Below are positions 55,707 to 58,803 of a stretch of DNA of 64,000 nt, piece by piece. Position 1 is the stretch's first letter. Each line of letters begins with the position of its first letter. The DNA is from Rhizobiales bacterium SYSU XM002 (GTDB lineage Bacteria; Pseudomonadota; Alphaproteobacteria; Rhizobiales; Beijerinckiaceae). Both the position numbers and the translations under genes were made by a program. The notes beneath the pieces were generated by a model that saw only the letters and a program-made list of their open reading frames with translations, searched no databases and had not been told where the DNA came from. The DNA is taken from contig VWVY01000001.1 of the NCBI GenBank assembly GCA_009846685.1, forward strand, positions 682,001 through 746,000, written 5' to 3'.

Positions 55707-55988
55707 TCAGCGTGGGCAACCGCGCCGTCGCTCCCAGTACTGGATGTCAGCGACATCCCGGCGCGCATTGGCCGAAAGTGGCACCGCGCCCATGTCGTCG
55801 TAGAGGCAGCCGGCATTACCGAAGGCGCGGATAGCCCGTGCGGTCTTGAAGCAATAGCCAGCCTCCTTGTAGATCGCATTGCGCGAATACCAGAGATCCT
55901 CGCAGGGCATCGCGCCGTAATCCTGGGCGAGCGCGGGAACAGCCAGCGTGAACAATCCCGCCACGACGAAAATCGTGGTCCGTTTCAT
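55707..55988 (-). CDS. YARHG-domain exported protein
   Basis: 93-residue protein with a signal peptide (about 1-21, ending ALAQD) and four cysteines. The core LWYSRNAIYKEAGYCFKTARAIRAFGNAGC matches the YARHG type of small periplasmic proteins of alphaproteobacteria, whose function is unknown. Starts 10 bases after uspA stops on the same strand. Confidence 0.85.
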   Translation of the reverse strand: MKRTTIFVVAGLFTLAVPALAQDYGAMPCEDLWYSRNAIYKEAGYCFKTARAIRAFGNAGCLYDDMGAVPLSANARRDVADIQYWERRRGCPR

Positions 55989-55998
55989 GATTACCTCC

Positions 55999-56847
55999 TC
56001 AGTAGGCCATCAGGACCGGCGTCACCGCCTTTTCCGACAGCTCGACCGTCACACCGCCGAGCAGGAATTCCCGCAGGCGCGAATGGCCGAACGCGCCGGT
56101 GACGATCAGATCGGCCTTGGTCTCGATCGCGCGCCCATCAAGGATGTCCGCCACGGAACGCCCGTCGGCAGCGATATCCGTCAGCGTAACCTCGACGCCC
56201 TTGCGCGCAAGATGTTCCGCGTAATCAGCACCCGGCAGGATGCCCTTAAGGCTCTTCTCGCCGGAGATGGTAACGATCTCGACCTTGCCCAGCGTCGGGA
56301 AGGTCGCGAACGCATCGGCCACCGCACGGGCTGCATGCGACGAGCCGTCCCACCCGACGACGATCGAGCGCACCTCTTCAACCGGCACCCGGCGCGGGCT
56401 AGCGACCAGAACCGGCCGACCGGAACGGAAGAGTGCCTCCTCCAGCAGCATTTCCGCTGTATCAAGCGCGCCGTGCTGCTGGTCAACCACAACGAGATCG
56501 GACGAACGGGCGATGCGCGCTGCCCGCGATCCAAGTTCGGCGAAGACGCCGGCGACGACCTGAACGCTGGCCGTCACGCCCGCAGCCTTCGCCTCCGCTT
56601 CAGCGGTTTCCGCAAGGCTCGCGCCCTGCTTCTGCGCCTGCTCGTTGACCTCGGCGGCGATGGAGTTCGCCATACCGGACCAGAGCGGTGTGTAAGGCGC
56701 CACGAAAGTCTGGACTGCAATCAGGACCGAAAGCCGGGCCTCATAACGCGCGGCTAGCGCGATGCCCTGCCGGATGGCGGCCATCGGCGTGTCGTCCGAA
56801 ACGCGGACAAGGCAACCGATATCGACGAAGGGATTCTGGCGATGCAT
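55999..56847 (-). CDS. Tandem universal stress protein (UspA family)
   Basis: 282-residue protein with two Usp domains (about 1-145 and 150-282). The C-terminal one ends with GAFGHSRLREFLLGGVT, an ATP-binding G-2x-G-9x-G(S/T)-type loop. Start ATG 56847 after CAGGAGGAC; upstream sequence is not Usp-like. Follows the globin-small-membrane cluster on the same strand and precedes the YARHG gene. Confidence 0.9.
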   Translation of the reverse strand: MHRQNPFVDIGCLVRVSDDTPMAAIRQGIALAARYEARLSVLIAVQTFVAPYTPLWSGMANSIAAEVNEQAQKQGASLAETAEAEAKAAGVTASVQVVAGVFAELGSRAARIARSSDLVVVDQQHGALDTAEMLLEEALFRSGRPVLVASPRRVPVEEVRSIVVGWDGSSHAARAVADAFATFPTLGKVEIVTISGEKSLKGILPGADYAEHLARKGVEVTLTDIAADGRSVADILDGRAIETKADLIVTGAFGHSRLREFLLGGVTVELSEKAVTPVLMAY

Positions 56848-56905
56848 GATCGTCCTCCTGTTCACTTGCGAACAGCGTCCCTCAAATCGCGGCTTCGCGG
56901 GATGA

Positions 56906-56921
56906 GGCAGATCAATCTGCC
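56906..56921. repeat. Inverted repeat upstream of uspA
   Basis: GGCAGAT (56906-56912) and ATCTGCC (56915-56921) form a perfect 7-bp inverted repeat with a 2-base spacer. It lies about 60 bases before the uspA start in the gap after the 45-residue protein. Possible operator; regulator unknown. Confidence 0.5.
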
Positions 56922-56933
56922 GGTTGCATTCGC

Positions 56934-57071
56934 CTAACGACCGACCCCGATCACGAACGTCAGCACCAACGCGAGCCACAGTGGTGCCGGCGCAGCAACC
57001 CAGAGCAGCAGCCACGGCAGCAGAACCGCCCAGCGGGAAGGCGTTGTTCCCGCTTCTAGATTGTCGGCCAT
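56934..57071 (-). CDS. Small one-to-two-helix membrane protein
   Basis: 45-residue protein, mainly one long hydrophobic stretch with a short polar N-terminus (MADNLEAGTTPSRW). Start ATG 57071 overlaps the end of the 77-residue protein gene by 16 bases. No known family. Real because of the coupled position, but too short for firm proof. Between the globin and the stress protein, so possibly part of the NO-response unit. Confidence 0.55.
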   Translation of the reverse strand: MADNLEAGTTPSRWAVLLPWLLLWVAAPAPLWLALVLTFVIGVGR

Positions 57072-57289
57072 TGCAGCAAACCTCCGAAAAAGAACAGGGC
57101 GATCACCGCACCGACACCGGCGTAGAACGCAAGACGGGCCGCGACTGTCAGCGAGCGGCCGACAGGGTCCGGCTTCGCTTCCTCGGTGAGGAATTCGGCT
57201 TCCCGGTGCATACCCCTCAGGACGGCGACATAGACGAGCATCACCATCAACGCGGCCAACTCGGCCGCGAGCACAATACCTGCCAGCAT
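57056..57289 (-). CDS. Small two-helix membrane protein after globin
   Basis: 77-residue protein with two membrane helices (about residues 4-24 and 50-72) and an acidic loop (HREAEFLTEEAKPDP). No family recognised. It starts 15 bases after the globin stop on the same strand and overlaps the next small gene by 16 bases, so a shared message is likely. Adds to the apparent NsrR-controlled unit. Confidence 0.65.
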   Translation of the reverse strand: MLAGIVLAAELAALMVMLVYVAVLRGMHREAEFLTEEAKPDPVGRSLTVAARLAFYAGVGAVIALFFFGGLLQWPTI

Positions 57290-57303
57290 GGAATGGACTT
57301 TCT

Positions 57304-57762
57304 TTAGCGCGCGAGTCGCGCGGGGAAGACAGGTGTTCCGCCGACGGACTTCTGCGTCGCGATGGCAAAGCGGAGGCTGTCCGCGATCCGCTCCGCGCGA
57401 TCGACGAACAACGCCGCCGCCGCAGGCGAACAAACCGCTTCAGCAACCGACTGGAAGAGATTCAGCCAGCGGGCAAAATGATGGTCTTCGAGCGCCAGCG
57501 GCAAATGCGCCGGCACCGGCTTCCCCTTGTAGACCCCGGTCGTCAGCAGGACGGAGGACCAGAAATCCACCATGGTTTCGAGGTGCACGGGCCAACGCGC
57601 CTCAGCGATGCGGGCATCGAAGATCGGCCCGAGAACCTCGTCCTTCCGGATCTCGCCGTAAAACGTGTAGACGACCGTCGAAATCATCTCCCGGTCGATA
57701 CCGACAAGCGTGCCGGGCGAATCGTATCGCCCGACAACACGCACCGTGTGCTCCGGCTCCAT
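57304..57762 (-). CDS. Group III truncated haemoglobin
   Basis: 152-residue globin of the truncated group III (Ctb) type. Features: VYTFYGEIRKDEVLGPIFDARI near 31-52, VHLETMVDFWSSVLLTTGVYKG near 59-80 and HFARWLNLF near 95, holding the proximal haem histidine. Group III globins are linked to nitric oxide and oxygen handling. Start ATG 57762. First gene of the leftward unit, divergent from nsrR, with an NsrR-type palindrome between. Confidence 0.9.
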   Translation of the reverse strand: MEPEHTVRVVGRYDSPGTLVGIDREMISTVVYTFYGEIRKDEVLGPIFDARIAEARWPVHLETMVDFWSSVLLTTGVYKGKPVPAHLPLALEDHHFARWLNLFQSVAEAVCSPAAAALFVDRAERIADSLRFAIATQKSVGGTPVFPARLAR

Positions 57763-57776
57763 GATCTTCTCCGCAT

Positions 57777-57799
57777 AAGATGCATTTATAATGCATATT
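57777..57799. promoter_or_regulatory. NsrR-type operator between globin and nsrR
   Basis: Two 11-base halves, AAGATGCATTT (57777-57787) and TAATGCATATT (57789-57799), separated by one base, form a palindrome. It matches the published NsrR box (AAGATGCATTT-N-AAATGCATCTT in E. coli) at 20 of 22 arm positions. It contains TATAAT on the plus strand. A second half-site, GATGCATA, lies at 57831-57838, ten bases before nsrR. Confidence 0.85.
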
Positions 57800-57848
57800 T
57801 AAATCGAGCGCTGGAAAAAGCAAGCGCGGGGATGCATATATTTTGCCC

Positions 57849-58304
57849 ATGCACCTGACCGCCCATACCGATTACGCGCTCCGCATCCTGATGTTCGCCG
57901 CTGCCCGTGCGGCGGACAAGGCGAGCGATGGACGCTTTTCTGTCGAGGAAGTCGCGAACGCCTACAACATCTCGCGCAACCACGTGATGAAGATCGTGCA
58001 ACGGCTCGCAGCCACGGGCTATCTCAAGAGCTATCGCGGTCGGAACGGTGGCCTCGCGATGGGCAAGGACCCGGCGGAAGTCCGCATCGGCGCGCTGGCG
58101 CGCTTCCTGGAGGTCGATTGCGCACTGGTCACATGCTTCTCTGACGCCTCGACCTGCCGGATCTGCGGGCAATGCGTGCTGCAAACGGCCCTCTCCGACG
58201 CACTCGAGGCTTTTTTCGCCAAGCTTGATGCGCTGACACTTGCCGATCTCACGCTGTCCGATCGGGCGATGCAGCGCCTCATGCGTCTCGCCGCGCCGAC
58301 GTGA
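57849..58304 (+). CDS. nsrR: Rrf2 family nitric-oxide-sensing regulator NsrR
   Basis: 151-residue Rrf2 protein. Winged HTH at residues about 1-65 (MHLTAHTDYALRILMFAA, NAYNISRNHVMKIV). C-terminal cluster with Cys at 91, 96, 103, 106 and 109; C96-C103-C109 aligns with E. coli NsrR C91-C96-C102 as the likely iron-sulfur ligands. The ending LDALTLADL also matches NsrR. NO damages the cluster and releases DNA. It probably represses the globin unit and itself. A TTG six bases upstream was rejected in favour of ATG 57849. Confidence 0.9.
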   Translation: MHLTAHTDYALRILMFAAARAADKASDGRFSVEEVANAYNISRNHVMKIVQRLAATGYLKSYRGRNGGLAMGKDPAEVRIGALARFLEVDCALVTCFSDASTCRICGQCVLQTALSDALEAFFAKLDALTLADLTLSDRAMQRLMRLAAPT

Positions 58305-58314
58305 TTCCCCTGCG

Positions 58315-58803
58315 CTAGTTCTCGGGCAGGCAGGTTTTCAACGCCTCGATATGGGCCTGATAGCGTTCCGGCACCGTACCCGCCTTGGCGATCTCGTCGA
58401 AGCGGGCAACAGCCGCCATCGCTGCCTGACGCTTGACCTCGCGCTCACCGATCGGGTTCAGCGCATTGAAGTAGGCGCAGGAGACGGCGTGCAGCGGGTG
58501 CTGGTTCTTGGTCGAAAACGTACAGACCTGCCGGATCATTGCCACAGTCGGCGGCGCTTTCCGACCGCGCAGCGCTGCCGCGACGCCGATCATGGTCACG
58601 GTCGCCTCGGCATCGCCCTTGAGTGCGAGCTTGCGCGCCTTGTCGAGCGCGACCGGCGGATCATCTTTCTCGATAGCCTGTTCTCCCGCCACGTAATACT
58701 CGCCGATGAGAGTATCCATGTTGTCGAGCAGGACCCGGCAATCGGGCGCTGCCAATGCCGGAGCCGCGAGCAAAAGGCCCGCGAGGCTAGCCCACCAGCG
58801 CAC
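58315..58803 (-). CDS. Exported protein of unknown function
   Basis: About 162 residues with a signal peptide (VRWWASLAGLLLAAPALAAPDC) and four cysteines in the mature part, likely forming disulfides. Mature chain is helical with two repeats-like segments. No family recognised. The GTG at 58803 is taken as start, overlapping the end of atp12 by 17 bases; an ATG at 58872 is a possible longer start. Convergent with nsrR. Confidence 0.6.
   Translation of the reverse strand: MRWWASLAGLLLAAPALAAPDCRVLLDNMDTLIGEYYVAGEQAIEKDDPPVALDKARKLALKGDAEATVTMIGVAAALRGRKAPPTVAMIRQVCTFSTKNQHPLHAVSCAYFNALNPIGEREVKRQAAMAAVARFDEIAKAGTVPERYQAHIEALKTCLPEN

Follow-up and report, generated by a model that had tools for sequence, protein, structure and literature searches.

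The window analysed here is a 64,000-nucleotide stretch of DNA from the alphaproteobacterium Rhizobiales bacterium SYSU XM002, and all coordinates are positions within it. At 55707-58304 it carries a gene group that includes an NsrR-like regulator of the Rrf2 superfamily, a group III truncated globin (trHb3), and two very small membrane proteins of 77 and 45 residues, designated m77 and m45. We read this locus as an NsrR-controlled, nitric oxide (NO)-inducible defence module in which a membrane complex of m77 and m45 would work with the globin at the respiratory membrane, and assign this reading a probability of roughly 0.65. That a real NsrR/NO module exists here and includes the pair is held with good confidence, and docking or reduction of the globin in particular is a tentative assignment for the pair's job. 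What the analysis shows is gene content, conserved co-occurrence, an operator, and cluster-ligand residues. From these features we infer an NO response, repression, complex formation, and a job for the pair.

The regulator gene (57849-58304, plus strand; PF02082, 3.1e-28) is divergent from the globin gene (57304-57762, minus strand). A predicted NsrR-type operator lies between them at 57779-57797, 16 bases upstream of the globin start codon. Downstream of the globin on the minus strand follow m77 (57056-57289) and m45 (56934-57071), with the start of m45 overlapping the end of m77 by 16 nucleotides. The order and coordinates of these genes, and of a universal stress protein (Usp) gene and a YARHG-domain gene beyond them, agree with an earlier note on this DNA.

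In other genomes, the pair is consistently found beside the same type of regulator. When 60 other genomes are searched with m77 as a single query, only one clear relative emerges, in a member of the same genus (G005, Rhizobiales bacterium PAR1), where a regulator 64% identical to that of the window faces m77-m45 with no globin between them. An m45 profile matches 8 of 199 genomes in the family sample, of which two matches are real, the window's own and that in G103. A scan of genome contigs yields 12 loci from 67 pattern matches, in unclassified Hyphomicrobiales (PAR1 again), Stappia, Pannonibacter, Hongsoonwoonella, Roseibium, Labrenzia, and others. Half of these (6/12) duplicate genomes already in the set, giving 20 distinct loci that all differ over the pair; L029-L031 are 96-98% alike, and L031 is 98% identical to L030 over the pair. 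The NsrR-like regulator adjoins m77 and m45 in all 20 distinct loci, and the globin does so in 16. Since the searches were made with m45 or m77 only, the regulator was not selected for. The earlier note had expected homologues of the small proteins beside nsrR and globin genes in related genomes, and these counts bear it out.

Profile E-values are circular for loci that are inside the profile, and the searches were repeated with each sequence left out of its own profile. These leave-one-out profiles recover m77 in 18 of 18 tested cases (E 3.8e-13 or better) and m45 in 17 of 17 (E 2.4e-8 or better). The underlying alignments omit L008, in which m77 is broken, contain no row for L031, and take only m77 from L047. 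L008 belongs to G103, a genome of 86% completeness, in which m77 is split across two reading frames, and the globin and m45 have upstream portions that are out of frame with the remainder. Weak m45-profile matches in six genomes (L009-L014, from a search at E 0.01) have neither regulator nor m77 and are judged spurious, as are three of five m77 matches (L004-L006, E 0.08-0.09), which have no regulator.

Five gene arrangements are found among these loci. The window, G103, and most Stappiaceae-type loci have the regulator divergent from globin-m77-m45, whereas L003 and L032 have it divergent from m77-m45 without a globin, and L034 has it divergent from m77-m45-globin. The genes are co-directional as regulator-globin-m77-m45 in L029-L031, and the order is m77-m45-regulator in L035 and L047. 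The continued company of regulator, globin, and pair through five arrangements would be hard to explain without a common function. The suggestion of the earlier note that m77 and m45 may form a membrane part of nitrosative-stress defence has thereby gained much better circumstantial support. The L047 record is titled Oceanobacillus sp. HTM 045 and its unit is otherwise alphaproteobacterial, so the label may be wrong.

Neither m77 nor m45 has a recognised family, as the earlier note had stated. No match above cut-off is obtained for m77 in Pfam or NCBIfam (12 members against both libraries) or for m45 (13 members against Pfam, and the window m45 against NCBIfam), and the two represent protein families present in none of the tested libraries. 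The m77 protein, kept in 20 loci, is predicted to form two helices at residues 2-32 and 42-76 (mean predicted local distance difference test score, pLDDT, 81; predicted template modelling score, pTM, 0.49). Across 18 sequences, Glu10 in the first helix and Gly58 in the second are invariant. The loop between the helices appears by eye to be basic and to contain Pro and Asp, and is for this reason probably cytosolic in the model. The m45 protein carries the core W-[VIA]-x-x-P-[AM]-P-L, with W24, P28, P30, and L31 invariant in 17 sequences, and its predicted helix breaks at the conserved prolines (pLDDT 76, pTM 0.32). A 19-residue block of m45 is identical in the window and G005, yet 10 of its 19 codons differ, which indicates selection at the protein level. 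A search of the window m77 against plasmids gives no match.

NorEF, NnrT, and CydX-like proteins are small membrane proteins accessory to NO or oxygen respiration. The likeness of m77 and m45 to these is one of idea only, that of very small membrane proteins serving respiratory enzymes. They differ in that m77 and m45 have no Pfam or NCBIfam match and no such enzyme gene is recognised beside the pair, a distinction drawn from family scans and neighbours only.

The regulator is the sole PF02082 match in the 3.46-Mb window genome (G000); by the same test, the genome has no separate IscR- or RirA-type Rrf2 protein. Among PDB entries it matches Streptomyces NsrR 5n07 best (1.5e-19) and 5n08 second. 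Three cysteines are replaced in 5n08, and C96, C103, and C109 of the regulator align with these positions; its D8 and R12 align with NsrR cluster residues in 5n07. According to the literature on Streptomyces NsrR, three cysteines and Asp8 bind its [4Fe-4S] cluster and Arg12 goes with Asp8, and a [4Fe-4S] cluster is putatively assigned to the regulator here. The excerpted text of PMC10510648 gives Asn8 for RirA and describes it as highly conserved among RirA homologues; the regulator has Asp at this position. These residues, together with an NsrR-type box, uphold the earlier assignment of the regulator to the NsrR type.

The published NsrR consensus, gATGyAT-N5-ATrCATc, describes beta- and gamma-proteobacterial regulons (Rodionov et al. 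2005, PMC1274295, as excerpted). The window site, GATGCAT-TTATA-ATGCATA, agrees with it at 13 of 14 positions; of 1000 dinucleotide-shuffled intergenic regions, one scores as well. The near-perfect NsrR box reported earlier between regulator and globin is thus confirmed. A search with a longer palindrome, RATGYATTTNAAATRCATY, finds this site as the sole match in the window at three or fewer mismatches (0.02 expected) and as the only position in the genome at two or fewer. Three further genome places have 3 mismatches, and the reversed control pattern also gives 1. These three were set aside as they look like chance: two fall within genes, and the third coincides with the 5' end of a hypothetical open reading frame (ORF). 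Because the site is unique at two or fewer mismatches and the other places look like chance, the NsrR-like regulon in the window genome probably consists of just this locus. Fifteen of the 20 pair-bearing regions have a box at the level of 10 per 1000 shuffles or better, and in L047 a box matching 13 of 14 positions stands directly ahead of m77. A weaker second box-like element occurs at the start region of the regulator (57828-57848) and in several other loci (e.g. AATATCTTTGATGCATATT in L017), suggesting possible autoregulation of the regulator.

The only PDB match of the globin at E 0.01 is 2ig3, the group III truncated haemoglobin Ctb of Campylobacter jejuni (1.5e-14 over residues 22-129). 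Its Pfam Bac_globin match is sub-threshold (17 bits, cut-off 21). An alignment with four homologues shows that F-W-S-V, G-x-Y-K-G, and H86 are kept. A trHb3 is present in all 14 pair-bearing genomes searched, a count that leaves aside the L047 genome. In three of these genomes (G005, G543, and G604) it does not adjoin the pair; in G005 it lies ~8 kb away on a 40.6-kb contig of repABC type, with RepA-, RepB-, and RepC-type genes. As 232 of 394 genomes of the order carry a trHb3, the 14/14 co-occurrence is suggestive only. The re-reduction and cellular role of group III truncated globins are a long-standing question. For these common globins, the pair is a tangible candidate for the missing partner, and one that can be deleted.

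We favour the following course of events. In the absence of NO, the [4Fe-4S] regulator would occupy the box upstream of the globin and repress globin-m77-m45, and perhaps also itself from the shared intergenic region. NO would attack the cluster and lift repression, and the cytosolic trHb3 and the small integral-membrane pair would then be made together, with m45 produced by translational coupling to m77. The globin would bind NO and oxidise or hold it. In the membrane, m77, a hairpin of two helices that buries a Glu, would assemble with m45, a single Pro-kinked helix. At the respiratory chain the pair would cooperate with the globin, its likeliest role being that of a platform for docking and electron entry. 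Docking is favoured because globin and pair travel together. A more specific but doubtful version holds that the pair is a new two-subunit partner of group III truncated globins, one that brings the globin to the membrane and supplies it with electrons drawn from either the quinone pool or a respiratory complex. A single-domain globin without a reductase of its own would in that case become a membrane-coupled NO dioxygenase or NO reductase, and m77 Glu10 together with the W/P/P core of m45 would serve as a contact or as a proton or electron path.

Several results weigh against the NO-defence reading. The pair is rare: m45 profiles detect it in 11 of 397 genomes sampled from the order, in 2 of 385 from the class, and in 3 of 398 from the phylum. 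These samples overlap and include the window's own genome; the three phylum-sample genomes are that one, G246 from the same order, and G604 from the same class. Among 20 globin loci chosen by hand from an order-wide trHb3 listing, eight have the regulator nearby and none has an intact pair, and a Stappiaceae relative (G374) keeps only an m77 remnant, after the globin. The counts of pair-globin co-occurrence take no account of relatedness. Five of the 20 pair-bearing regions have no box at the 10/1000 level (per-1000 shuffle counts of 12 in L034, 20 in L008, 46 in L027, 104 in L032, and 264 in L035). A Foldseek search with the m77 model returns 10 matches, the best at E 5.2 and none meaningful, and profiles of the pair compared with PDB sequences give a sole match, of the m77 profile to cytochrome c oxidase (COX) subunit 7A2, which is not significant (E 0.71). 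Finally, the regulator scores 108.7 bits against the NCBIfam NsrR equivalog NF008240, below its cut-off of 182, and is therefore called NsrR-like. This is the best score among all NCBIfam models listed for it, and the RirA model scores nearly as high (104.8 bits, cut-off 193).

The closeness of the two scores bears on another interpretation, in which the regulator senses iron or the general redox state in the manner of RirA, the rhizobial iron regulator, and the operon is an iron- or oxygen-economy unit. The two regulators share the Rrf2 superfamily, and the genome's sole Rrf2 protein by PF02082 might hold a broader job. However, the regulator has the NsrR-type Asp8 and Arg12, whereas RirA has Asn8, and the box is an NsrR-type one with hardly a second like it in the genome, which suggests a local rather than a global regulon. 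An iron-sensing unit is accordingly rated as improbable.

The patchy distribution could also be that of a hitchhiker. The pair would then be a small hydrophobic cassette, either toxin-like or selfish in another way, that uses the NsrR promoter. Compared with a same-genus genome (G014), the pair seems to have been inserted between globin and Usp; this, the repABC-type contig in G005, and the decay of the pair in G374 are compatible with such an origin. Yet the pair stays with regulator and globin through the five arrangements, every tested m77 and m45 is recovered by a profile built without its own sequence, the window and G005 share an identical m45 core despite changes in 10 of 19 codons, and no antitoxin-like partner is seen. 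Together these make a selfish cassette very improbable.

Haem-copper oxidases are sensitive to NO. The window genome has two COX1-family genes, which by eye resemble those of an aa3-type CtaD and a cbb3-type CcoN. A third COX1-family match, and with it NorB as judged by this test, is not found, and neither is cytochrome bd. Respiration would therefore depend on haem-copper oxidases, and the combination of NO-sensitive oxidases with a globin lacking its own reductase makes globin-docking and oxidase-protecting roles both attractive. Because some loci have regulator and pair with no adjacent globin, the main rival is that the pair protects or reassembles these oxidases as a small accessory subunit or chaperone, induced through NsrR alongside the globin but not serving it. 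Consistent with this, the pair is not next to the globin in 4 of 20 loci, and m77 and m45 are both membrane proteins with conserved intramembrane residues. Set against it, the globin adjoins the pair in the other 16, none of the loci with inspected ORFs shows a recognisable oxidase gene next to the pair, and the COX subunit 7A2 match falls short of significance; oxidase protection is thus regarded as unlikely.

The regulator and globin also occur without the pair. In G014, the shared neighbourhood comprises an M19 peptidase, Usp, globin, regulator, the gene found at 58315-58803 in the window, ATP12, and HAD, and there is no match for m77, m45, or YARHG at this locus. In G009 (L018:636-893), an NsrR-like regulator and globin are followed by a DUF2249 protein (PF10006, 1.4e-30) in the position that m77-m45 would occupy. 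Because G014, G009, and eight of the 20 chosen globin loci keep regulator and globin without an intact pair, the NsrR-like regulator and trHb3 appear from these neighbourhoods to be the core, to which m77-m45, Usp, and DUF2249 are alternative additions.

Ctb of C. jejuni, the homologue of the globin described above, belongs to the NssR regulon, and we know of no comparable small membrane pair associated with it. NssR is of the CRP/FNR type, and the C. jejuni system thus differs from the present one, in which the regulator is NsrR-like. The beta- and gamma-proteobacterial NsrR regulon resembles the window locus in having an Rrf2 regulator beside a globin gene and the box gATGyAT-N5-ATrCATc; it differs in that the unit here is alphaproteobacterial and has m77, m45, and probably Usp as partners (comparison with the excerpted text of PMC1274295). 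The closest parallel in that text is Legionella, for which the sole NsrR target is predicted to be glbN, encoding a truncated-type globin, together with a hypothetical ferredoxin reductase as its second partner. The same excerpts report no NsrR orthologue in alphaproteobacteria except in R. capsulatus E1F1, and their NsrR regulon parts lists name no small membrane pair like m77-m45. Literature searches on NsrR with truncated haemoglobin or trHb3 returned, within the partial texts they covered, no description of this unit, a negative that extends to those searches only.

Several other globin neighbourhoods have unusual contents. In G242 (L090:2458-2904), a 148-residue membrane-like protein with no Pfam match lies between an NsrR-like regulator and trHb3 and is possibly a different membrane partner. 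A 200-residue ORF in G009 (L081:7856-9667), which has no Pfam match but matches the trHb3 profile at 2.2e-9, is tail to tail with an NnrS gene (PF05940, 6.2e-74). In G543 (L079:6581-8734), two different globins of 137 and 149 residues flank a gene that is thioesterase-like by eye, behind a regulator that by eye is Crp/Fnr-like and is similar to one beside the L040 unit, which belongs to Roseibium aggregatum IAM 12614.

Beyond m45 lie the tandem Usp gene (55999-56847, minus strand; PF00582 over two stretches, 6.8e-13, 49.8 bits against a cut-off of 24) and the YARHG-domain gene (55707-55988, minus strand; PF13308, 2.3e-15), both of which the earlier note had tentatively included in the unit. 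In G014, the Usp gene directly follows the globin and its product is 62% identical to the window Usp; this one same-genus genome supports Usp as a likely member. YARHG has no match in the same syntenic locus, which speaks against it as a conserved member, and its membership is doubtful.

The earlier note described a 62-base gap with an inverted repeat ahead of Usp. The inverted repeat is present, while 86 bases in fact separate the stop of m45 from the start of Usp. No terminator-like site is found in this gap, whose fold is unremarkable (z -0.78); the idea of a stable or terminator-like structure ahead of Usp is thus supported by neither result and was rejected. Within the gap (56848-56933) lie a palindrome whose two 7-base arms match perfectly, GGCAGAT-TG-ATCTGCC, and another inverted repeat, which adjoins the ribosome site. 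Judged by their sequence, these inverted repeats could be an operator.

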